A stretch of DNA of 54,968 nucleotides. Source: Halorientalis salina. Its GTDB lineage: Archaea; Halobacteriota; Halobacteria; Halobacteriales; Haloarculaceae. This document shows, in pieces, positions 2,936 to 18,343 of this stretch. The notes below the pieces were generated by a model. That model was not told the DNA's origin. It did no database searches and saw nothing but the letters and a program-made list of their open reading frames with translations. Position 1 is the stretch's first letter. Every line of letters begins with the position of its first letter. Both the position numbers and the translations under genes were made by a program. The stretch is from positions 1 to 54,968 of the forward strand of contig NZ_SOSC01000016.1 of assembly GCF_005049285.1 (NCBI RefSeq), in the 5' to 3' direction.

Positions 2936-3110
2936 CGTCTCCGGAAGTTCGGGGACTAAACTGTTAAACGTACTGTCAGATATGTGACTTAGAGCACGAA
3001 CGTTCGGATCCTGAAGGCTATTGTAAAGCAGACTGCAACCGATCCGCACGCATCCCACTTCTCGTATCAATTAACTATACGTTTCTCCTTGTGGTGTGGT
3101 GCCTTGTATT

Positions 3111-4373
3111 ATGCCAGAGACCGTTTTCGAGGTCGATGTCGATAGCTCGGTAGAGGAACAACCCGATCCGATCGTCAATCGGTGGCATCCCGACATTCCA
3201 CCGGTCGAAACCGTTCAGCCGGGGGATAAGTTCCGTGTGGAGTGTCTCGACTGGACGGGTGACCAGGTCGTAAACGACGATAGCGCGAACGACATTCGTG
3301 ACATGGACCTCGAGCCGAACCACCACCTGAGTGGGCCGATCGGGGTCGACGGCGCGGAGCCAGGGGACGTACTGGTCGTGGATATCCTCGATCTGGGTCC
3401 GTTCCCCGAAAACGAGTGGGGCTTCAACGGGATCTTCGAACTGGACAACGGTGGCGGGTTCCTCACCGACCACTTCCCCGAGGCGCGAAAATCCATCTGG
3501 GATCTTGACGGCGTCTACGCGAGTTCTCGCCACATCCCGGACGTCCGCTTTGCCGGACTCTCACACCCCGGGATCGTGGGTACGGCTCCGTCACACGATC
3601 TTCTGGAGGAATGGAACGACCGCGAACAGGCCCTCATCGACCGCGGTCCGGAAGACGAGACGGCCATCAACCACGAGACCCACGAGGACGAACCGCCGCT
3701 GGCGCTCCCGCCGGAACCGGAAGACGTCATGCTCGGTGACATGGACGATGACGATGTCGAGGAGGCCGCCCAGAAGGCCGCTCGGACGATCCCGCCGCGC
3801 GAGAACGCGGGCAACTGTGACATCAAGAACCTGAGTCGCGGGTCTCGCGTCTACCTCCCGGTGTTCGTCGAGGGTGCGAACCTGATCACGGGCGACCTGC
3901 ACTTCTCGCAGGGCGACGGGGAGATCACGTTCTGTGGAGCCATCGAAATGGCTGGCTTCATCGACCTGAAAGTCGACGTCATCAAAAACGGGATGGAGAA
4001 GATGGGGACCGATTACCCCCTGTTCACGCCCGGCAACGTCGAACCACAGTTCTCGGAGTACGTCGTCTTCGAGGGCTACTCCGTCGACGAGGACGGCACC
4101 CAGCACTACAAGAACGCCAACGTCGGGATGCGCCGCGCCTGCCTCGACGCCATCGACTACCTGTCGAACTTCGGGTACACGCGCGAGCAGGCCTACCAGA
4201 TCCTCAGTTGTGCCCCTGTCGAGAGCCGGATCGCCGGCATCGTCGATCTCCCGAACACCTGCGTTACCGTGTCCGTCCCCGAGGAGGTCTTCGAGTTCGA
4301 CATCAACCCCGACGGACTCGCCGAGGAAACCGCTCCGAGCGAGGACAGAGGCGACCTCGCGAAGCCGTCCTGA
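3111..4373 (+). CDS. fmdA: Formamidase/acetamidase family amidohydrolase, copy 1
   Basis: 420 residues from ATG 3111 (MPETVFEVDVDS). The full-length FmdA/AmdA fold is present: N-terminal RWHPDIPPVETVQPGDKFRVECLDW, LSGPIGVDGAEPGDVLVVDIL, GFNGIF, and the conserved core SRHIPDVRFAG..HPGIVGTAPS, RENAGNCDIKNLSRGSRVYL, LHFSQGDGEITFCGAIEMAG and the C-terminal YTREQAYQILS. These enzymes are cytoplasmic metal-dependent amidases that hydrolyse formamide (or acetamide) to formate (acetate) and ammonia. A TATA-like TTAACTATA lies about 35 bp upstream. A close paralog is at 10910-12178. An amide channel (6246) and a formate dehydrogenase (12365) nearby fit formamide use. Whether formamide or acetamide is preferred cannot be read from the sequence. 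Confidence 0.92.
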   Translation: MPETVFEVDVDSSVEEQPDPIVNRWHPDIPPVETVQPGDKFRVECLDWTGDQVVNDDSANDIRDMDLEPNHHLSGPIGVDGAEPGDVLVVDILDLGPFPENEWGFNGIFELDNGGGFLTDHFPEARKSIWDLDGVYASSRHIPDVRFAGLSHPGIVGTAPSHDLLEEWNDREQALIDRGPEDETAINHETHEDEPPLALPPEPEDVMLGDMDDDDVEEAAQKAARTIPPRENAGNCDIKNLSRGSRVYLPVFVEGANLITGDLHFSQGDGEITFCGAIEMAGFIDLKVDVIKNGMEKMGTDYPLFTPGNVEPQFSEYVVFEGYSVDEDGTQHYKNANVGMRRACLDAIDYLSNFGYTREQAYQILSCAPVESRIAGIVDLPNTCVTVSVPEEVFEFDINPDGLAEETAPSEDRGDLAKPS

Positions 4374-7439: not shown

Positions 7440-8060
7440 ATGCGAACTGGCGTCATCATCGCGGGGGGGTACTCGACGCGATTCGGTGCGGACGACAAAG
7501 CGGTCGCGGACTTGGCGGGGAAGCCGATGATTCGTCGCGTCGCTGACCGTCTCGTCGCGCCCGTCGACGAGATACTCGTGAACTGCCGACCGGCACAGCG
7601 CTCCGGCATCGAAGAGGCCCTCTTTGGTCTCGAACTCCCCATCCAATTCGCCGAGGACCCCGAACCTGATCAAGGTCCGATGGCGGGGATCATGACCGGA
7701 CTCGAAGCAGCCGACGGTGAGTACGCTGCGGTCGTGGCCTGTGACATGCCCTTCGTCAGTCCGGCGTTCGTCCGCTATCTGTTCGAGCGAGCGGACGGTC
7801 ACGACGCGGCGGTTCCACAGGTCGAAGACGAGTGGTTCCAGACGACGCAGGCGGTTTACCGCGCCGAGCCGATGGCAGCCGCGTGTGCCGAGGCGCTGGA
7901 ACGGGACGAGCACAAGATCATCGAACCGCTGTTTACCCTCGATTACGTCGTCGTCGACGAACGCGAGATCCGCACGCACGCTGACACTGATACGTTCCGG
8001 AACGTCAATACGCGAGCGGAATTGCGCGACGCCGCACAGGAATTCGGCGACAGCAAATAG
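7440..8060 (+). CDS. mobA: Molybdenum cofactor guanylyltransferase
   Basis: 206 residues from ATG 7440. The N-terminus has the nucleotidyltransferase signature IAGGYSTRFGADDKAV (G-x-S-x-R-x-G-x-D-K in this family), followed by LAGKPMIRRV, and a central metal-binding VACDMPFVSP. MobA transfers GMP from GTP to molybdopterin, making the guanine-dinucleotide cofactor that formate dehydrogenases of the DMSO-reductase family require. Such an enzyme is encoded at 12365-14482. It is nearly abutting and convergent with yqeC (8 bp). The protein has the usual ~200-residue length. Confidence 0.93.
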   Translation: MRTGVIIAGGYSTRFGADDKAVADLAGKPMIRRVADRLVAPVDEILVNCRPAQRSGIEEALFGLELPIQFAEDPEPDQGPMAGIMTGLEAADGEYAAVVACDMPFVSPAFVRYLFERADGHDAAVPQVEDEWFQTTQAVYRAEPMAAACAEALERDEHKIIEPLFTLDYVVVDEREIRTHADTDTFRNVNTRAELRDAAQEFGDSK

Positions 8061-8068
8061 CGGGATCC

Positions 8069-8791
8069 CTATTCTAACGTGGCAACAAGCGGGTTTTCCG
8101 CGATCATCCGTGTGAGGGCGACGCGGTCGACCCGTCGGTTGTCGAGGATTTCGCCTGCGATCCGTCGGGCGATGGTCTCGTCGGTATCGTCGTCGACTTT
8201 GTTTATGACGGGTACGACCGTCGCCTCCTCTGGGACGGCCTTCAGTCCGCCATCGGGACTTGTCAGCACGTCGGCGACGTGTTTGGGGCGGATCCGCTCA
8301 CCCGGTGAGAGCCCGGTGAGCGCGGCGACGCGCTCGACGCGATGGACGTACTGGTCGGTGAGTGGCTTCCCGACCACGTGGGCGCTGACGATCGGAAGCA
8401 CCGTCTCAGTATTAGCGGGAATACGCGGTTCCGAGTCGTTTGGAGCCTTGAACTCGCGTGTTCTTGCGCCATCGGCTTTGACCAAGACCGAATCGGCGAG
8501 ACCGGTTTCGGCGATATGACCGACTGTCTCCGTGTCGTACCCGAGATACCTGTCGGACTCCCGCTCCGGGACGAGCCCGAGCGGCCACCCCCCAGCAGCC
8601 TCCAGAGCCCCGACTGGATCCTGCGTCACTGTCACCTCCGACACCTGAGCGTCGAATATTGGGATGCGTACGGTGCCAGTGACAACTGCGCGGTCGAGTT
8701 GGCCGGCGAGTTGCCAGAGGGTGGATTTCTTCCCGCCGGCACCGACGACGCAGACGAGTCCCTCGGCCGCGAGCGCGTCGACCAGTTCCAT
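8069..8791 (-). CDS. yqeC: YqeC-like accessory protein (selenium/molybdenum hydroxylase maturation)
   Basis: 240 residues from ATG 8791 (MELVDALAAEG); a GTG at 8830 would add 13 residues. A P-loop-like VVGAGGKKSTL (residues ~15-25) sits at the N-terminus, then VLVKADGARTREFKAP and INKVDDDTDE, the set of motifs seen in the YqeC family. YqeC proteins are known by genomic association with selenium-dependent molybdenum hydroxylases; their reaction is not settled. Here it adjoins mobA and lies near a formate dehydrogenase and an AOR homolog, which supports a role in molybdenum/tungsten enzyme maturation. Confidence 0.85.
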   Translation of the reverse strand: MELVDALAAEGLVCVVGAGGKKSTLWQLAGQLDRAVVTGTVRIPIFDAQVSEVTVTQDPVGALEAAGGWPLGLVPERESDRYLGYDTETVGHIAETGLADSVLVKADGARTREFKAPNDSEPRIPANTETVLPIVSAHVVGKPLTDQYVHRVERVAALTGLSPGERIRPKHVADVLTSPDGGLKAVPEEATVVPVINKVDDDTDETIARRIAGEILDNRRVDRVALTRMIAENPLVATLE

Positions 8792-8905
8792 AGCAGGAGT
8801 ATGGACCCACGCCGCCAAGTCTTCACCCACCAGTGAATCGATCTGACCTCTCAGTGCCGAGACCGTTCCGAAACGTTACCCCTGTGTTCGTGGACGCTAC
8901 TGGGG

Positions 8906-9519: not shown

Positions 9520-10866
9520 ATGAAACGCTCCAACACGTTCGCCGTGCGTCCGCTCTCCGAAACGGGAGAGCAGGTGCTACGGGACCTGTTGGACGCGTCC
9601 GCCGCGCTCTGGAACGAAGTCAACTACCAACGCCTCATGCGGTACAATGACGAAGACGGCTTCGAAGGTGACGTGTGGGACGCCGACACCGGTCACCTCG
9701 AAGGCAAGTACAAAGGCAATCTTGGTGCGTCCACCGCCCAACAGGTGATCCGCAAGAACAGCGAAGCGTGGCGCGGATTCTTCCGAAACAAGGACAAGTA
9801 TTACGACGAGCCGAACACGTCGGTCACGGACCACCCCAACCCGCCGGGGTTCCGCGGCAACGAAGATGAAGGCCGCGTTCTCAAGACCGTCATTCGCAAC
9901 ACATCCTACACCGTCGAATGGGGCGACCGTTCCCGGCTCGAGATACTGGTCGGGAGCGAATTGAAGGACCGATACGACCACACCGGACGACTCCGCCTGG
10001 AGATCGCCGGCGACCCGAACTGGCCCGAGTACGACAAACAGGGCCGCCTTGATCTGTGGTACGACGAGACTGACAGCACCTTCAGAGCTTCGCAGCCCGT
10101 GACTATTACTGATGCACGGGACACTCCACTGGCCGACCACAAGGCCGCTCTGGACATCGGTGCGAACAACCTCGTCGCCTGCACCACCACGACCGGCGAG
10201 CAATACCTGTACGAAGGCCGGCAGTTGTTCAAACGTTTCCGTGAGACGACGCGGGAAATCGCCCGGTTGCAGGCCAAATTACCGGAAGACCAAGACAGCA
10301 GCGAGCGCATCCGATGCTTGTACCGGAAGCGGACTCGACGTCGCGATCATGCCCAAGAAGCGTTGTGTCGCGATCTACTGGAACGCTTGTACACCGAAGG
10401 TGTCGATACGGTGTACGTCGGTGGGTTGACCGACGTGCTTGATACGCACTGGTCTGTTGAGACGAACGCCAAGACGCACAACTTCTGGGCGTTCCTGCAG
10501 TTCACGAAGCGATTGATGTGTACCGCCGAGGAATACGGCATCTCGGTCGAAGTCCGGTCGGAAGCGTGGACCACCCAAGAGTGCCCACATTGCGGGTCGA
10601 CAGACCGAACGACACGGCATCAGGACACACTCACCTGTCCGTGTGGATTCGAGGGTCACGCCGATCTCACGGCATCGGAGACGTTCCTAGAGCGGCACAC
10701 CGAGAAGGCAGTCAGGCGGATGGCACCGCCCGTGCGGTTCGAGTGGGACAACCACGACTGGTTGGTGTCACCACGCTCTCACGAAAGTCCCAAAGAACGG
10801 CGCACAGACCCGAGTACTGTCCACCACAGCGGGAATGTTGCCTCCGGCGAGTCCCGAAGCGGCTGA
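9520..10866 (+). CDS. tnpB: TnpB RNA-guided endonuclease, atypical RuvC-II
   Basis: 448 residues from ATG 9520. A long N-terminal recognition part is followed by Ruv[10 protein letters not shown] (Asp212), a segment YVGGL at 299-303 where RuvC-II normally has a Glu (x-x-E-D/N-L), a zinc ribbon CPHC...CPCG (Cys355, 358, 373, 375), and Ruv[12 protein letters not shown] (Asp382). TnpB is a transposon-encoded nuclease guided by an omega RNA made from the element's 3' end. The RuvC-II Glu is missing at its usual position; an alternative acidic residue such as Glu348 just before the ribbon might replace it, or the protein may be nuclease-inactive. The C-terminal ~45 residues beyond the ribbon overlap the presumed guide-RNA-coding part. 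Confidence 0.93.
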
Positions 10867-10909: not shown

Positions 10910-12178
10910 TCATAGTGGATCGTCGGTGATCGCAACCTGCCCGCGGTCCCGGGACTGGTCGAGCCCGTCGGGACTGACGTCGAACTCGAACACGTCCTTG
11001 GGTACCGCGAGGGTCGAACACGCGTTCGGGATGTCGACCACCCCGCTCTGTCGTCCCTCGACCGGGACCGTCCCGAGGATCATGTACGCCTGTTCGCGGG
11101 TGTAGCCGAACTTCTCTAGGTAGTCGATGGCTCGCAGACAGGCCTGGCGGTACGCGACGTGGGAATCGATGTAGTGTTGCTCGCCCTCCTCGTCGACGGA
11201 GTAGCCCTCGAAGACGACGTAGTCGCTGAAGTCCGGGCCGCGATGCCCGGGCTCGAAGATCGGATGCGAAATCCCGTGTTTGTCCATCCCGTCCTTGACG
11301 AGTTCGAATTTCAGGTCGACGTACCCGGCCATCTCGATGGCCCCGCAGAACGTGATCTCCCCGTCGCCCTGCGAGGCGTGCAGGTCTCCGATACCGAACT
11401 TCGCGCCCTCGACGAACACCGGGAAGTAAATGGTCGAGCCGAGCGAGAGGTCCTTGATGTCGCAGTTGCCACCGTGTTCCCGCGGTGGCACGGTCCGCGC
11501 CCCTTCTTCGGCGATCCGGTCCGCTTCGTCGCCACTCGCCTCGCCCGGCTGTGCGCCTTCGGGCGTCGGGGGCGACGCGACCGGCGGTTCCGATTCGCCC
11601 GTCGGGTGATCCGGGATCGAACTCGGGTCTTCCTCGTGTTGCTCGATGAGTTTTGCCTCGCGCTGAGTCCACTCTTCCAGGAGGTCCTGGGAGGGTGCCG
11701 TCCCGATGAGCCCGGGATGGATCTTCCCCTCGTAGTACACGTCCGGGATGTGCCGCGAGGAGACGTAGGTTCCGTCGAGATCCCAGATCGATTTTGCGGC
11801 GTCGGGGAAGTGATCGGTCAGGAACCCGCCACCGTTTTGCTGTGAGAAGATGCCGTTGAACCCGAACTCCCACCGGTCGTTCAGCGCCCCGATGTCCAGT
11901 AGCGTGACCTTCAGCAGGTCCCCGGGTTCGGCGTTCGACACCTCCACCGGACCGCTCAGGTAGTGAACCTGATTCAGGTCGACGTCGCGCACCTCGTTGG
12001 CGTTGTCGTTGTCCTGTATCTGTCCGCCCGTCCAGTCGAGACATTCGAGCCGGACCGTATCACCTGGCTCGGCGGTGACGACCGATTCGATCTCCGGATG
12101 CCATCGATTGAACGGGTTCGCCCCCGGCTGTTCGTCCGGCGGGCTGTCCACGTCTACTTCGAAGTGTACTTCGGGCAT
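10910..12178 (-). CDS. fmdA: Formamidase/acetamidase family amidohydrolase, copy 2
   Basis: 422 residues from ATG 12178 (MPEVHFEVDVDSPP). It shares the complete core with copy 1: LSGPVEVSNAEPGDLLKV, SRHIPDVYYEGKIHPGLIGTAPS, REHGGNCDIKDLSLGSTIYFPVF, LHASQGDGEITFCGAIEMAGY and YTREQAYMILG. The two diverge most in the acidic linker of residues ~180-225 and in the C-terminus. Same predicted reaction: formamide or acetamide to acid plus ammonia. The stop codon TGA (10912-10910) touches the right end of a TnpB element, so the native 3' flank has been replaced or displaced. It is downstream of and parallel to the formate dehydrogenase gene, with a 186-bp gap that leaves room for its own promoter. Confidence 0.92.
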   Translation of the reverse strand: MPEVHFEVDVDSPPDEQPGANPFNRWHPEIESVVTAEPGDTVRLECLDWTGGQIQDNDNANEVRDVDLNQVHYLSGPVEVSNAEPGDLLKVTLLDIGALNDRWEFGFNGIFSQQNGGGFLTDHFPDAAKSIWDLDGTYVSSRHIPDVYYEGKIHPGLIGTAPSQDLLEEWTQREAKLIEQHEEDPSSIPDHPTGESEPPVASPPTPEGAQPGEASGDEADRIAEEGARTVPPREHGGNCDIKDLSLGSTIYFPVFVEGAKFGIGDLHASQGDGEITFCGAIEMAGYVDLKFELVKDGMDKHGISHPIFEPGHRGPDFSDYVVFEGYSVDEEGEQHYIDSHVAYRQACLRAIDYLEKFGYTREQAYMILGTVPVEGRQSGVVDIPNACSTLAVPKDVFEFDVSPDGLDQSRDRGQVAITDDPL

Positions 12179-12364
12179 TGGTATCCTGGGCTGGAGTGCC
12201 CAAGAAAGACGATTCCACGAACGAACCATTAAACACTATGAAAGATTATTAAGGTTAGGTACGGTATCGGTCAAACAGTTTGCACTCCCGATTTCGACAG
12301 CCGTGTCGAAAAACGGCAATTCGACCGCCGAGCCGTCGGCGTATCCCGCCGGGGCGGGCCCGGC

Positions 12365-14482
12365 TTAGTCGTCTGCGCCGGCTTCGGATTGACTGGGTTC
12401 GATACCGACCTCGATCTCGGCGGCCGCAGCCTTGTACTCCGGAATTTTCGCGCGTTCGTCGAGCACGTCGTTCGTGAGCACGTTCGCGGAGGCGGCCGCG
12501 AAGTGCGGTGTCGTCCAGACGACGCCTTCCTTGATGTCGTCGGTGACGTGCGCGGTGAGCGTGATTTCGCCGCGACGCGATTTGAGGGTTACCTCGTCCT
12601 CGTCCTCGACGCCGTAGCGCTCGGCGTCCGCCGGGTGGATGTCGACGAAGTTCTCGGGATGCTGGCGGTTCAGCGTTGGCGACCGGGTGCTCATCGTTCC
12701 GGTGTTGTAGTGCTCGATGAGTCGCGCCGTCGTGAGGACGAGCGGGTACTCCTCGTCGGGCACCTCGGCCGGCGGCTGGTGACTCACGCCTTCGATGTGT
12801 CCCAGGCCGCTGGGCGTGGTGAACTCGTCCTCGTAGAGGTACGGGTCGCCCTCGTCGCCGAGTTCGTAGCAGGGCCAGTGCAGCCCTTCCTCGCCGAGCA
12901 GGTCGTAGGTCATCCCGTGGTAGCTGGGACACACCTGCCGCAGTTCCTCGAACACCGCTTCGGGCTCGGAGAAGTCGAACCCCGCGTCTTCACCGAACAG
13001 ACGAGTGCCCACCTCGGCGACGATGTCGAGGTCGTGTCTGGTGTTCTCGTGGACCTTCTCGACGGGGCGCATCAACTGGACGCGGCGGTCGGTGTTGGTG
13101 ACCGTGCCGCCGCGTTCGGCCCACGACGTCGCCGGCAGGACCACGTCGGCCAACTCAGCCGTCTCGGTCAGGAAGATGTCCTGTGCGACCATGAACTCGA
13201 GCTTCTGGAGTCGCTCGGCGACTTCGGTGGCATCGGGTTCGCTCATCACGGGGTTTTCGCCCATGACGTACAACCCGTGGACGGTGTCACCAGCCGCCAT
13301 CGAGATCTCGACGTTGGTCAGCCCCGGTTCCGGCGGGATCTCGAAGCCCCACACCTCTTCGACGGAGCGGCGCGCGGCGTCGTCGTCCACGTTCTGGTAG
13401 CCCGGCAGGACGTTCGGCATCGCGCCGACGTCACAGGTGCCCTGGACGTTGTTCTGGCCACGAAGCGGGTTGACGCCCGTGCCGGGGCGGCCGAGGTTCC
13501 CCGTCATGAGTGCCAGGTTGATTTCGTTCTGCACGTTGTCGACGCCGCAACTGTGCTGGCTCATCCCCATCCCGGTGAAGATGGCCGCGTTCTCCGCCGT
13601 GGCGTACTTTTCGGCGGCGTCCTCGATGTCTGCCAGCGGGACGCCGCAGGTCTCCGCCGCCTCCTCCTTGTCGAAGCCTTCGAGCGTCGCTTTCAGGTCC
13701 TCGAACCCTTCCGTGCGCTGCTCGATGAACTCCTCGTCGACCCAGTCGTTCTCCAGGACGGTTTTGAGGACGATATTGAGCAGCGGGATGTCCGTCCCGG
13801 GCTTCACCTGGAGGTGCATGTGGCGCTCGGTTCCCTCGATGTCGAACGACTCGGTCGTCTTGTTCGCGTGCGGGTCGACCTGGATGACCGTTGCCCCGTC
13901 GATGACTGCCTGGCGGAAGTGCTGGCTGTTCGCGATCGGGTGCTGTTCGGCCGGGTTGGCACCCTGTATCCAGAACACGTCGGCCTTCGCCCCCAGGTCC
14001 TCCATGCTGTTGGTCATCGCGCCGGCGCCGAGGCTTCGACGCAGGGCCCACACCGTCGAGGCGTGACACATCCGGGTGCAGTTGTCGACGTTGTTGGTCC
14101 CGTATCGACGAGCGAGTTTCTGAAAGAGGTAGTTCTCCTCGTTCATGATCTTCGAGGAGCCGAAAAAGCCCATCGCTTCCGGCCCGTGTTCCTCGCGTAT
14201 CCGACCGAGTTCGTCGACGACGCGCCCGAGCGCCTCGTCCCAGGTGGCCTCACGGAACTCCCCGTCCTCTTTGATGAGCGGATCGGTCAACCTGTCCTCG
14301 TGGTCGACGACCTCTGTCGCTGCGCCGCCTTTGATACAGATCCGTCCCTCGTTGACCGGGGCGTCACCCCACGGCATGAATCGCATGTCTCCCGGCTCCT
14401 CGCCCGGTTTGACCTGAATCCCACAGCCGACGCCGCAGTACGGACAGATCGTCTTGACTGGATCTTGGTTTTTCTCTGACAT
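12365..14482 (-). CDS. fdhA: Molybdopterin-dependent formate dehydrogenase, catalytic subunit
   Basis: 705 residues from ATG 14482. An N-terminal [4Fe-4S] motif CPYCGVGC...RICIKGG uses Cys13, 16, 20 and 49. The metal ligand is a cysteine at 139 in CTRMCHAST, followed by the His140 that is typical of formate dehydrogenases (a Cys, not selenocysteine, enzyme). Further family motifs are GANPAEQHPI, GMGMSQHSCGVDNV, LRGQNNVQGTCDVGAMP and the C-terminal cofactor-cap domain LTTARLIEHYNTGTMSTRSP. It oxidises formate to CO2 in the cytoplasm. No ferredoxin-like, diaphorase or membrane subunit lies beside it, so the electron acceptor is unknown. It is divergent from the gene at 14658. Confidence 0.93.
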   Translation of the reverse strand: MSEKNQDPVKTICPYCGVGCGIQVKPGEEPGDMRFMPWGDAPVNEGRICIKGGAATEVVDHEDRLTDPLIKEDGEFREATWDEALGRVVDELGRIREEHGPEAMGFFGSSKIMNEENYLFQKLARRYGTNNVDNCTRMCHASTVWALRRSLGAGAMTNSMEDLGAKADVFWIQGANPAEQHPIANSQHFRQAVIDGATVIQVDPHANKTTESFDIEGTERHMHLQVKPGTDIPLLNIVLKTVLENDWVDEEFIEQRTEGFEDLKATLEGFDKEEAAETCGVPLADIEDAAEKYATAENAAIFTGMGMSQHSCGVDNVQNEINLALMTGNLGRPGTGVNPLRGQNNVQGTCDVGAMPNVLPGYQNVDDDAARRSVEEVWGFEIPPEPGLTNVEISMAAGDTVHGLYVMGENPVMSEPDATEVAERLQKLEFMVAQDIFLTETAELADVVLPATSWAERGGTVTNTDRRVQLMRPVEKVHENTRHDLDIVAEVGTRLFGEDAGFDFSEPEAVFEELRQVCPSYHGMTYDLLGEEGLHWPCYELGDEGDPYLYEDEFTTPSGLGHIEGVSHQPPAEVPDEEYPLVLTTARLIEHYNTGTMSTRSPTLNRQHPENFVDIHPADAERYGVEDEDEVTLKSRRGEITLTAHVTDDIKEGVVWTTPHFAAASANVLTNDVLDERAKIPEYKAAAAEIEVGIEPSQSEAGADD

Positions 14483-14657
14483 AGTTTTCCCCGGGGATGT
14501 CGCGGGTTCGCCCGCAACGTGTACTCGAAAAAGCCACCGCACGAGTATGAGTGTTTTTAACAAACACGGTAACCTTCCGGATCGAATATCCGTTTCCCAC
14601 GCTGGAACTCCCGAATCCGGCACAAAGCACAGGGAGGCAGGGGCGGTAGAGAGCCGT

Positions 14658-15236
14658 ATGGACCTGACTCGTTCGATCGTGACATCCCGGGCGGCGGAAT
14701 ACAGGGAGGAAGAACCGCTCTACTCCGTCGAGCATGAGGCCCTCGACGTGTTCCCCGCGATGTTCTCGGAGGGACGGTTCGGCTGGCGTGATGCGGAATG
14801 GGTCGTACGCTGGTACTACCGGCGGTTCCTCGGCGAGTTTCCCCACGACGAGCGACAGGCCGTCGAGGACCGGTTCGGTGACAACGACTTCGAGACCGTC
14901 CGCAGTGTGATCGACGCGACCGTTGCGGCCGACGATCCGACCGCGAAGGTGGAACGACTAACCGACCTCGAAGGCGTCGACGTTCCGGTCGCATCGGCGT
15001 TTCTCATGTTCATCGATCCCGAATCGTTCGTCGTCGTCGGTGAACGCGAGTGGACGGTGTTGTTCCGGGCCGACGAGCTGGAGCGTCCCTTCCCCGACCC
15101 GCCGTCGGGTTCGGAGTACGTGACCTATCTCGATACCTGTCGGCAGTTGGCTGACCGTTTCGACTGTGACCTCTGGACGCTGTACATGGCTCTCTGGCGG
15201 TCGTGGACGGTCGAATACGCCGAAGCTACTCGGTGA
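14658..15236 (+). CDS. Protein with a helix-hairpin-helix-like segment, function unknown
   Basis: 192 residues from ATG 14658 (MDLTRSIVTSRAAEYREEE). The stretch LEGVDVPVASAFLMFIDPESFVVVGEREW resembles the hairpin and following helices of HhH-GPD-like proteins (usually GVGPxxASAxLxFxxPxxYPVxDxR), but the catalytic Lys/Asp of base-excision glycosylases are not evident. Flanking segments are Trp/Tyr-rich helices (DAEWVVRWYYRRFLGEF, CDLWTLYMALWRSW). Its stop is 6 bp from the end of the AOR-like gene on the other strand. I do not assign a function. Confidence 0.65.
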   Translation: MDLTRSIVTSRAAEYREEEPLYSVEHEALDVFPAMFSEGRFGWRDAEWVVRWYYRRFLGEFPHDERQAVEDRFGDNDFETVRSVIDATVAADDPTAKVERLTDLEGVDVPVASAFLMFIDPESFVVVGEREWTVLFRADELERPFPDPPSGSEYVTYLDTCRQLADRFDCDLWTLYMALWRSWTVEYAEATR

Positions 15237-15242
15237 CAACGG

Positions 15243-17018
15243 TCACGAGCCGCTATCGTCCGCACCGACGGGCGTGTCGTCGTCGACGACCGCCAGAAGG
15301 TCGAGCCGGTCCAGCGTCCCAGTGGTGGGACGCCCTGCTTCGTCCCACCTGCGGGCGTCGTAGTAGGCTTCCAGCATCGCTTCGAAGGTAGCGGGATCGA
15401 TCCCCCGCTCGTTGGAGTGCCTGTCGCCGACCGCTTCGGTGAACACGGCCGGCAGTTCGTCGTCCGCCCGGCTGAATCCCTCTCGGAGGTTGAACAGTCG
15501 CGTCAGGTTCCAGATGCGCTCACCGACTCGCTGGAGGTCCGCCGGCACTGGTGCTCCCACTGCCCGGAGCCACTCCTCGCCCAGATCGTCGAGCACCGAG
15601 CCCAGGAAATCGTCGGCGACGAGACTCCAGAGGACCGAACTGGTGTCCTGTTCGACGATCACGGCCGTCGCGGCACGGGCTGGATTCCAGGCCCCGGAAT
15701 CCAGCGGCTCGCGCTCGATCGGCCGACTTCGGCGGTGGCAGGCTCCTCGGTCGCTCGTCGCGTAGGCCAGCGCCATGCTGGCGGCCGCACGGGGATCGTA
15801 GGACGGAACCTCCATCCCCTTCACCGTGGGAATCCGATCCTCGACGCCCAGAGTGGCTGCGGCTGCTTCGACGCCGAGCGCAAGACTTTCTCCGAGTTCC
15901 GTTCGACGGGTCGCGATCTCCTCTAGTAGCTCTCGGACAGCGGCGGTGTCTCCGAACGAGAGATCCCGATCCAACACACCTTCCTGACTCGCCAGGACGG
16001 CCAGGGCCACGGCGTTGCCGGCGCTGATTACGTCTATCCCGGCGCGATCACACGCCTCGCCGAGCGCTACGACAGCGTCGAACTCGTCGATCCCGAGCGT
16101 CGCGCCGAGCGTCATCTGTGTTCCACCCCGAGGCACGGTTTCGCCCTCCGCTGTCCGTATCTTGAACCCGCCGGGAACTGCATCGGTGTTCCGCTCGCGG
16201 TCGGTAGCGGCGTCACGGGCGGTTTCGATTCCGATGTCGTCCGTCCCGTCGAACTGCCGTTCCTGCCACCCGCGAGTGGCCAGGCCTCCCACCTCGTTGG
16301 CGAAATCGGCTGATTCGAGGGTCTCGCTCGCGGCTTGCCAGCGGCCGACAGGAGCTTTGGCGAACCGCTCGGCGCAGGCCTCGCGGAGGTCCCCCAGTCC
16401 GGACGGTGACTCGCCACGAGCCACGACCGCTTTCAGGTATTTGCTTCCCATGACTGCCCCGGCCCCACCCCGACCCGCGTGGTGGTCGCCGCCGTCGGTC
16501 GCGATCGTTGCATATCGGACTCGGTGTTCCCCCGCGGGGCCGATACAGGCGACCGCGGCGTCGGGGAAGCGCTCACACGTTTCCACAGTGTCCTCTCCCC
16601 AGAGATCGCTGACTGACTCGACCCGGACCGCACCGTCTTCGACGACGATGGACACGGGTTCGTCGGCACTGCCAGTGACCAGCAGCCCCATGTGCTCGCC
16701 CAGCGCGCCAGCGAGTGCTCCGGGGAAGGTCCCACCGGCGTACGAATCGAGGAAGGTTCCGGTGAGTGGCGACTTCGTGATCGCCGCGTATCGCTGTTCG
16801 CCCGGTAGATACCCAGTCAGTGGACCGAGCATGAACAACAGCACGTTCTCCGGTCCCAGCGGATCGGTTCCCGCATCGAGTTCCTCGTAGAGATATCTCG
16901 CACCGAGGCCCTTGCCACCGACGAACTGTCGCTGCCATCCCTCCGGAATGGGCTCGCTTTCGGACGTCCGCGCTCGGAGATCGACTCGCACGAGTCGACT
17001 GGGTGTCGACCGTCGCAT
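15243..17018 (-). CDS. aor: Aldehyde:ferredoxin oxidoreductase homolog lacking Fe-S cysteines
   Basis: 591 residues from ATG 17018. AOR features are clear: N-terminal FVGGKGLGARYLYEEL, LGPLTGYLPGEQRYAAITKSPLTG, DSYAGGTFPGAL, and GRGGAGAVMGSKYLKAVVARG (~183-202), which contribute to the bis-pterin tungsten site. Normally four Cys bind a [4Fe-4S] cluster: C-x2-C-x3-C near residue 288 and one near 494. Here the first region (~272-286) reads TDRERNTDAVPGGFK and the second reads VEQDTSSVLWSL, both cysteine-free. The five cysteines elsewhere do not form the motif. The protein may be cluster-free and use a different electron route, or may have lost catalysis. It converges with the HhH-like gene and is divergent from the alcohol dehydrogenase. 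Confidence 0.88.
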   Translation of the reverse strand: MRRSTPSRLVRVDLRARTSESEPIPEGWQRQFVGGKGLGARYLYEELDAGTDPLGPENVLLFMLGPLTGYLPGEQRYAAITKSPLTGTFLDSYAGGTFPGALAGALGEHMGLLVTGSADEPVSIVVEDGAVRVESVSDLWGEDTVETCERFPDAAVACIGPAGEHRVRYATIATDGGDHHAGRGGAGAVMGSKYLKAVVARGESPSGLGDLREACAERFAKAPVGRWQAASETLESADFANEVGGLATRGWQERQFDGTDDIGIETARDAATDRERNTDAVPGGFKIRTAEGETVPRGGTQMTLGATLGIDEFDAVVALGEACDRAGIDVISAGNAVALAVLASQEGVLDRDLSFGDTAAVRELLEEIATRRTELGESLALGVEAAAATLGVEDRIPTVKGMEVPSYDPRAAASMALAYATSDRGACHRRSRPIEREPLDSGAWNPARAATAVIVEQDTSSVLWSLVADDFLGSVLDDLGEEWLRAVGAPVPADLQRVGERIWNLTRLFNLREGFSRADDELPAVFTEAVGDRHSNERGIDPATFEAMLEAYYDARRWDEAGRPTTGTLDRLDLLAVVDDDTPVGADDSGS

Positions 17019-17176: not shown

Positions 17177-18343
17177 ATGTCTATGAACGCTGTCGTTTAT
17201 CAGGGAGAAAAGGACGTTTCAGTAGAGGAAGTGGAAGAACCGGAAATCCAACACCCCAGTGACGTAATTATCGACATCTCCACGACGGCCATCTGCGGGT
17301 CGGACCTGCACATGTACGAAGGTCGGACTGACGCCGACCCCGGACTCGTCTTCGGGCACGAGAACATGGGGACGGTCGAGGAGGCCGGCGAGGGCGTTAC
17401 TACCCTCGAGGAGGGCGACCGCGTGGTCGCGCCGTTCAACGTCGCCTGCGGGTTCTGTCAGAACTGCGAGGAGGGAAAAACGGGATTCTGTACCAACGTC
17501 AATCCCGGGTTCGCGGGCGGCGCGTACGGATACGTCGCGATGGGGCCCTATACGGGTGGACAGGCCGAGCGCCTCCGCATTCCCTTCGCGGATTTCAACG
17601 CGCTCAAACTCCCGCCGGGCGACGAACACGAGGACGCGTTCGCGATGCTGGCTGACATCTTCCCGACGGGCTGGCACGGTACGGAGCTGGCGAACCTCCA
17701 GCCCGGTGAGTCCGTTGCGGTCTACGGTGCCGGACCGGTCGGGCTGATGGCGGCCTACAGCGCGGACATCAAGGGGGCGTCCGAGATATACGTCGTCGAC
17801 CGCGTCGAGAGCCGACTGGAGATGGCCGAAGACCACGCCGATGCGACGACCATCAACTTCGAGGAGGGCGATCCGGTCGAGCAGATCAAGGACGAACACG
17901 GTGGCGGCGTCGACAAGGGCATCGACGCGGTCGGATACCAGGCGATCGATCCTGACACCGATCCCGGGGACGACGCCTACGACCCTGCCCGTGAGAACCC
18001 CGCGGTCGTTCTGAACCAACTCATCCAGACTGTTCGTCCGACGGGCGAACTCGGCATCCCCGGCCTGTACGTTCCGTCCGACCCTGGCGCGCCCAGCGAG
18101 ATGGCAGCCCAGGGCCGGCTTGGAATCGACTTCGGGAAACTGTTCGAGAAAGGGATCAAACTCGGTACCGGCCAGTGTAACGTCAAGAAGTACAACCGCT
18201 ATCTCCGCGATCTCATCATCGAGGGCCGTGCCGATCCCAGTTTCGTCGTGACCCACCGCGTCGGGCTCGACGAGGCCCCCGAGATGTACGAAAAGTTCGA
18301 CAATCGCGAGGAGGGTGTGGTGAAAGTCCTCCTCGAACCGTAG
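17177..18343 (+). CDS. Zinc alcohol dehydrogenase, glutathione-independent formaldehyde dehydrogenase type
   Basis: 388 residues from ATG 17177 (MSMNAVVYQGEKDV; ATG 17183 is also possible). Catalytic zinc ligands appear in CGSDLHMYEG and FGHENMG; structural-zinc cysteines are in CGFCQNCEEGKTGFC; the NAD site is VYGAGPVGLMAAYSADIKGA. The long insert after the Rossmann fold (GVDKGIDAVGYQAIDPDTDP...NQLIQTVRPTGELGIPGLYVPSDPGAP) is characteristic of the glutathione-independent formaldehyde dehydrogenase/dismutase branch. Such enzymes turn formaldehyde into formate using bound NAD. Next to a formate dehydrogenase this fits an aldehyde-to-CO2 route; the substrate itself is inferred. Confidence 0.9.
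   Translation: MSMNAVVYQGEKDVSVEEVEEPEIQHPSDVIIDISTTAICGSDLHMYEGRTDADPGLVFGHENMGTVEEAGEGVTTLEEGDRVVAPFNVACGFCQNCEEGKTGFCTNVNPGFAGGAYGYVAMGPYTGGQAERLRIPFADFNALKLPPGDEHEDAFAMLADIFPTGWHGTELANLQPGESVAVYGAGPVGLMAAYSADIKGASEIYVVDRVESRLEMAEDHADATTINFEEGDPVEQIKDEHGGGVDKGIDAVGYQAIDPDTDPGDDAYDPARENPAVVLNQLIQTVRPTGELGIPGLYVPSDPGAPSEMAAQGRLGIDFGKLFEKGIKLGTGQCNVKKYNRYLRDLIIEGRADPSFVVTHRVGLDEAPEMYEKFDNREEGVVKVLLEP

Follow-up and report, generated by a model that had tools for sequence, protein, structure and literature searches.

What a member of the aldehyde ferredoxin oxidoreductase (AOR) family could do without the cysteines that hold its [4Fe-4S] cluster is the question raised by a gene of Halorientalis salina, found in a contig of 54,968 nucleotides that was analysed over its whole length and is called here the window. 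A preliminary description of this DNA had placed an AOR homolog at 15243-17018. The position proved to be right; the strand, which the description did not give, is the minus strand. The reading frame is intact (591 aa from the ATG, full-length AOR fold), which rules out a broken gene. The features of the locus are presented in Table 1.

Table 1. Features of the focal gene and its neighbours in the window.
Feature	Coordinates	Strand	Basis
Second FmdA formamidase	3096..4373	+	NF045496
MobA-like guanylyltransferase	7440..8060	+	TIGR02665, 103 bits (below the cut-off of 152)
YqeC	8069..8830	-	TIGR03172, over cut-off
FmdA formamidase (formamide to formate)	10910..12229	-	NF045496
FdhA, formate dehydrogenase alpha	12365..14623	-	over TIGR01591 cut-off
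F10, conserved companion of cytoplasmic FdhA; start codon chosen from family alignment	14658..15236	+	8-oxoguanine-glycosylase-like fold
Focal gene, cluster-free AOR/WOR-fold protein, 591 aa	15243..17018	-	ORF, translation, Pfam, AF2 model, PDB matches
Second motif for pterin and cluster, originally DxxGLC and here WSLVADDF (residues 464-471; D489 to W, C494 to D)	15606..15629	-	alignment
Former CxxCxxxC loop, residues about 273-298, Cys-free, modelled as two short strands; its end is PRG replacing PEY(E)	16125..16202	-	alignment and model
Zinc-dependent alcohol dehydrogenase; best match glutathione-independent formaldehyde dehydrogenase (below cut-off)	17177..18343	+	

The Pfam scan of the focal protein gave AFOR_C (277.6 bits) and AFOR_N (221.2 bits), both far over the cut-off, and these two domains, like the fold, are those of the AOR/WOR large subunit. 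The AlphaFold2 model (pLDDT 95.0) was superposed on 1B25, 9MQX and 1AOR with Z values of 49.1, 48.6 and 47.7, respectively, over 569-578 aligned residues, and the top four PDB matches (Z 47.2 to 49.1) were all of the AOR/FOR type. Solved AOR/FOR structures were also found in the sequence search, 9Q1T being matched by sequence only. Among the matches listed, ten plasmid copies with 57-65% identity are named 'aldehyde ferredoxin oxidoreductase C-terminal domain-containing ...'. Viral contigs were scanned for relatives as well; none was found and a viral origin was rejected.

Residues of the cluster and of the active site

All residues are numbered according to Pyrococcus furiosus AOR. The residue-by-residue analysis covered 110 rows of the clade described below, a part of its 181 strong matches; for residue counts, six truncated or frameshifted rows (L112, L114, L128, L018, L019 and L020) and two repeats were removed, which left 102 rows, 87 of them distinct. 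In the alignment of the focal protein with P. furiosus AOR, the columns of C288, C291, C295 and C494 hold T, V, a gap and D. Cysteine is absent from the four ligand columns, and from the whole 278-300 loop, in all 110 rows (fragments and repeats included), so that both places are cysteine-free as the preliminary description had stated. Replacement cysteines at the cluster site were ruled out: the loop has none, and a lone Cys near 488-490, seen in 28 of the 110 rows, lies off the ligand columns.

Such a loss is at odds with what has been published on the family. The cluster cysteines were reported to be conserved in 99% of AOR/WOR members in the part of PMC10413684 available to us, and the cofactor sites to vary very little (PMC13328260, section 5). 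The accessible sections of that June 2026 family survey treat the large subunit as cluster-bearing and mention no cluster-free clade, and the portions of the open-licence literature available to us contain no description of one. Class I WOR, a single WorL with one [4Fe-4S] cluster linked to ferredoxin (PMC13328260, section 7), differs from the focal protein in the cluster itself.

The changes extend to the active site. E313, H448, Y427 and T243 are placed in the aldehyde mechanism, E313 being the proposed proton acceptor, and the equivalents of D489 and C494 contact the pterin, according to the accessible parts of PMC12096430 and PMC10413684. We took the second-shell residues from section 5 of PMC13328260 and the pterin contacts from the available part of PMC10413684, with the numbering converted here. 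Among the 87 distinct rows, T243 (86), Y427 (86) and H448 (87) are kept, and E313 is replaced by A, G or S in every row, which leaves the second-shell set incomplete and, given the role of E313 in the literature, argues against ordinary aldehyde oxidation. E311 is changed to R in 86 rows, and Y312 to G in all 87. As for the pterin contacts, R76 (85) and G95 (87) are kept and D338 largely so (D in 72, N in 15), whereas R182, D489 and C494 are replaced by H, W and D, respectively, in 87/87 rows; D343 is retained throughout (87). The tungstopterin parts, said in the preliminary description to be preserved, are therefore preserved at R76, G95, T243, Y427, H448 and D343 (85-87/87), and the statement does not hold for D489, E313 and E311. 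Compared with P. furiosus AOR/FOR and the WOR family (PF02730/PF01314; 1AOR, 1B25, 9MQX), the focal protein has the whole fold and these six residues in common, and differs in the missing cluster ligands, in the absence of E311/Y312/E313, in the change of D489 to W and in its linkage to formate dehydrogenases (FDHs).

Conservation within the clade reaches 97% or more in 130 of the 591 columns. Among those that are new with respect to cluster-bearing AORs are E245, R311, G312, R449, W489 and D494, which adjoin known site residues, with E245 near T243 and R449 beside H448. In 22 close pairs of the clade, dN/dS has a median of 0.13 and a maximum of 0.32. The site was rebuilt under purifying selection and has not decayed; a bound W-bis-MPT is a candidate property of the rebuilt site.

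Distribution and phylogeny of the cluster-free clade

Matches to the focal protein at E 1e-60 were found in 216 of 392 genomes of Halobacteriales, in 60 of 95 genera. With a cut-off chosen in this analysis (E 1e-150), 181 of these genomes have a strong match; the other 35 have weak or split copies or other paralogs, a judgement based on reading some of the weak matches. A tree was computed from 27 clade rows and 20 others after removal of the trait columns, by a quick search with no bootstrap and with the root drawn at the midpoint; in it, the clade forms one side of a branch with an SH-aLRT value of 100. The cluster trait changes once on this tree and the clade adjoins a cluster-bearing haloarchaeal sister clade, which points to a single loss. 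The suggested alignment and tree thus revealed a loss shared by a monophyletic haloarchaeal clade, and a lone degenerate case was rejected.

All four cysteines are present in four sister rows, in 15 other AORs and in 32 further AORs; one other AOR (L022) shows S at column 288 in one alignment and all four cysteines in a second one. The 32 further AORs comprise the 30 best-scoring loci from 80 other genomes of the phylum and two bacterial plasmid copies, and no cluster-free member was found among them. The sister clade, exemplified by plasmid pNMAG01 of Natrialba magadii, is 41 to 45% identical to the focal clade and shares with it the changes of N93 to Y, R182 to H and mostly A183 to H, and an aromatic residue at 489; unlike the focal clade, it keeps the four cysteines and the EYE motif. 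The sister clade commonly has D at 495 as well. At sister loci L113, L115, L116 and L117, D489 is already replaced by an aromatic residue and R-A at 182-183 by H-H, and the pterin site may therefore have changed before the cluster was lost. These results support the new AOR subclass proposed in the preliminary description, i.e. a widespread and well conserved haloarchaeal relative of AOR that has neither the cluster nor the catalytic glutamate.

Linkage to formate dehydrogenases and absence of FdhD

In the window, the focal gene has F10 and FdhA as neighbours, and two formamidases, a MobA-like gene and YqeC are located close by. An IS605 OrfB/TnpB-like transposase gene (9520-10866, plus strand) is located within the formate dehydrogenase region. 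The two formamidases occur in the window together with a thermosome, and this set, a formamide/formate island, recurs on a Halomicrococcus plasmid, there with CrcB and AmiS/UreI. Plasmids annotated at NCBI bear out the linkage to FDHs: the order is AOR, fmdA, hypothetical, fdhF on the plasmid of Halomicrococcus gelatinilyticus, and AOR, two hypotheticals, NuoF-like, fdhF on Haloterrigena turkmenica pHTUR02.

Neighbouring genes at the other loci were picked by ORF length and acidity, so that some may be missed. FdhA-family genes were present in 40 of 62 focal loci, or in 39 of 61 distinct ones, as L014 and L077 are one place. When 47 loci were cut evenly at about 7 kb, FdhA was found in 26, FdhA or its FlpD/Fer4 companion in 32, YqeC in 15, a TorD/NarJ-like gene in 15, a MobA-like gene in 13 and a relative of the alcohol dehydrogenase in five. 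The FdhA genes linked to the focal gene have four architectures (cytoplasmic, two Tat types and an NAD type), and R-x-C-H, which we take to be an FdhA signature, is kept in 40 of 40 linked FdhA. For the NAD type and the third type (the other Tat type), FdhA and the focal gene are at most 10 kb apart in 17 of the 24 genomes with both places listed. In contrast to the focal clade, none of the four sister loci read has an FdhA-family neighbour, and neither does the locus of N. magadii pNMAG01. No electron-transfer or cluster small subunit recurs in a fixed manner beside the focal gene at the loci read; Class V WOR, by contrast, has a cluster small subunit with a Tat signal (PMC13328260, accessible sections).

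The same association was observed across genomes, in raw counts that ignore kinship. For the focal gene and FdhA, the best two to three candidates per genome were scored, and counted absences are consequently upper bounds. At least one FdhA of the four architectures is present in 178 of the 181 strong-match genomes, and none was shown in G089, G265 (partial match only) and G313. Cytoplasmic FdhA, defined in this analysis by a best E of at most 1e-250, was found in 110/181 genomes with strong matches, 19/35 with weak ones and 23/176 with none; the respective numbers for Tat type 2 were 82/181, 7/35 (weak or fragment) and 2/176. Among the 29 strong-match genomes with neither of these two types, 23 have a long NAD-type FdhA (G102 in two pieces) and three the other Tat type. 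In 20 no-match controls, taken not at random but as the first listed genomes of the same genus and family, a full NAD type was found once (G043), the third type never, and the cytoplasmic type in G051.

The association has exceptions, which count against a helper of FDHs. No FDH-type marker out of six was found within 7 kb at 13 of the 47 evenly cut loci, and 23 of the 152 genomes with cytoplasmic FdhA (nine genera; an upper bound) have no focal match at E 1e-60, so the focal protein seems not to be strictly required for every FdhA. At 12 FdhA loci of these genomes no AOR remnant was seen; MobA-like genes are present at eight of them, YqeC at seven and F10 at seven. Locus L165 has the order YqeC, MobA-like, F10, FdhA, alcohol dehydrogenase, which is that of L068 minus the AOR between the last two. 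Because these genes are retained, YqeC or F10 could replace FdhD just as well.

It is important to mention that this chaperone has no match in these organisms. Certain haloarchaea grow by oxidising formate (PMC5437934, PMC6176080, in the parts consulted), and the accessible text of PMC6239281 describes FdhD as essential for all three FDHs of Escherichia coli and FdhD-like proteins as binding bis-MGD. The FdhD profile PF02634 matched none of the 392 genomes of Halobacteriales, though many carry FdhA; in a sample of the phylum it matched 0 of 15 haloarchaea versus 75 of 85 others, and in a control set 8 of 14. The focal protein is no member of the FdhD family either, since its Pfam scan gave AFOR_N and AFOR_C only.

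YqeC is familiar from selenium-dependent molybdenum hydroxylases, and in many haloarchaea it accompanies MobA-like and FdhA genes, including at loci that lack the AOR. Its deletion gave no clear phenotype in the selenium pathway of another organism (PMC11448449, available part). The fold of the unannotated F10 is closest to 8-oxoguanine DNA glycosylases (Z 13.3, rmsd 3.7, 176 aligned residues; Foldseek E 3e-3). The lysine at its helix-hairpin-helix position, a position that we presume from the Ogg enzymes, is absent in 16 of 16 members; F10 is seemingly a second inactivated enzyme at the same locus and perhaps binds the guanine of MGD.

Possible functions of the focal protein

The target of a factor common to FDHs of the Tat-signal, cytoplasmic and NAD types should be what these share, the catalytic subunit and its cofactor. 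In AOR the pocket accommodates bis-MPT, and bis-MPT forms the core of bis-MGD; the two arguments together lead to the proposal that the AOR fold was repurposed to hold or hand over the bis-pterin cofactor for FDHs. We consider the chances of this proposal to be about evenly balanced, and the focal protein is probably a helper of FDHs and not an aldehyde oxidase. In this proposal, a haloarchaeal AOR/WOR paralog lost the cluster and the aldehyde-oxidising residues once, while its fold and a large part of the pterin pocket were retained, and would have been redirected to work with FDHs. The protein would bind a bis-molybdopterin-type W or Mo cofactor (a precursor or the core of bis-MGD) and either hold it or, acting with MobA and YqeC, deliver it to several types of FdhA apoprotein, and would in this way fill part of the gap left by FdhD. 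From the gene linkage we infer a maturation factor that would bind bis-MGD or its precursor and be needed for FDH activity. The loss of one pterin aspartate, D489, is counted against this reading and keeps cofactor binding a prediction. FdhD/FdsC offers a proposed analogy only, as one factor for several FDH types with a bis-pterin ligand, and belongs to an unrelated family. The same fold family as that of the focal protein includes E. coli YdhV (Class V WOR), whose physiological role is likewise unassigned; its relative CsWOR41 had no aldehyde activity (PMC13328260, accessible sections).

The focal gene may alternatively act in salvage or only under certain conditions, or code for an enzyme. 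The main rival of the cofactor helper is a cluster-free W/Mo-bis-pterin enzyme: its metal site would exchange electrons or oxygen with a soluble partner without an intermediary, as is possible in cluster-free enzymes of the DMSO reductase type, or would perform non-redox C1 chemistry. The new Arg residues at 311 and 449 would then make the aldehyde pocket an anion (formate-like) site. Such an enzyme is favoured by the retained T243, Y427 and H448, by the Arg and Glu residues newly conserved at the site and by the formamidase and formaldehyde-dehydrogenase-like neighbours. We regard it as rather unlikely, because the proposed proton acceptor E313 is lost in 87/87 rows (role as in the available parts of PMC12096430 and PMC10413684) and the presence of the gene with Tat-signal, NAD-type and cytoplasmic FDHs alike is more easily explained by a role with the cofactor than by a single pathway step.

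The losses of the cluster, the glutamate and D489 could likewise indicate a pseudoenzyme free of cofactor, whose role would be structural or regulatory, with FdhA or a DUF7124 paralog as partner. DUF7124 is the next gene in 25 of the 62 focal loci, a close coupling, and at 19 of these 25 (L008, L014, L017 and similar) it starts at or just before the end of the focal gene. A DUF7124 copy is, however, present in 62 of 62 genomes searched, with and without the focal gene, and was for this reason rejected as a strictly co-occurring marker; the copy at the focal loci is nevertheless a divergent second paralog. The conservation of R76, G95, T243, Y427, H448 and D343 in 85 to 87 of 87 rows also speaks against an empty pocket, and we hold this alternative to be improbable.

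An aldehyde oxidoreductase with another electron acceptor, as the preliminary description had suggested, would explain the preserved fold and several second-shell residues, but is very improbable: neither the catalytic glutamate nor the EYE motif survives in any of the 87 rows compared, the loss of the cluster was accompanied by that of one pterin aspartate, no fixed electron-transfer subunit was found at the loci read, and the gene follows four FDH types with different predicted locations and partners. The non-catalytic role that the same description offered, or a non-canonical one, fits better, and the link to FDHs gives it a direction. A decaying gene, to which some split or fragmented copies might point, is hardly credible given a dN/dS of 0.13, the 130 highly conserved columns and the broad presence of the gene.

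Returning to the cofactor helper, a far-reaching version of it would be that Haloarchaea swapped FdhD for an AOR-fold chaperone that assembles the bis-pterin cofactor or inserts it into several FDH types, aided by YqeC and the glycosylase-fold, possibly guanine-binding F10; we find this version doubtful, and YqeC or F10 may be the true substitute for FdhD. A conserved clade that breaks both conservation rules of AOR/WOR shows a redox enzyme turned to another use. With haloarchaeal growth on formate and no FdhD match in 392 genomes, the supply of cofactor to FDHs becomes a testable question, and the focal gene, YqeC and F10 are concrete candidates for supplying active cofactor to haloarchaeal FDHs.
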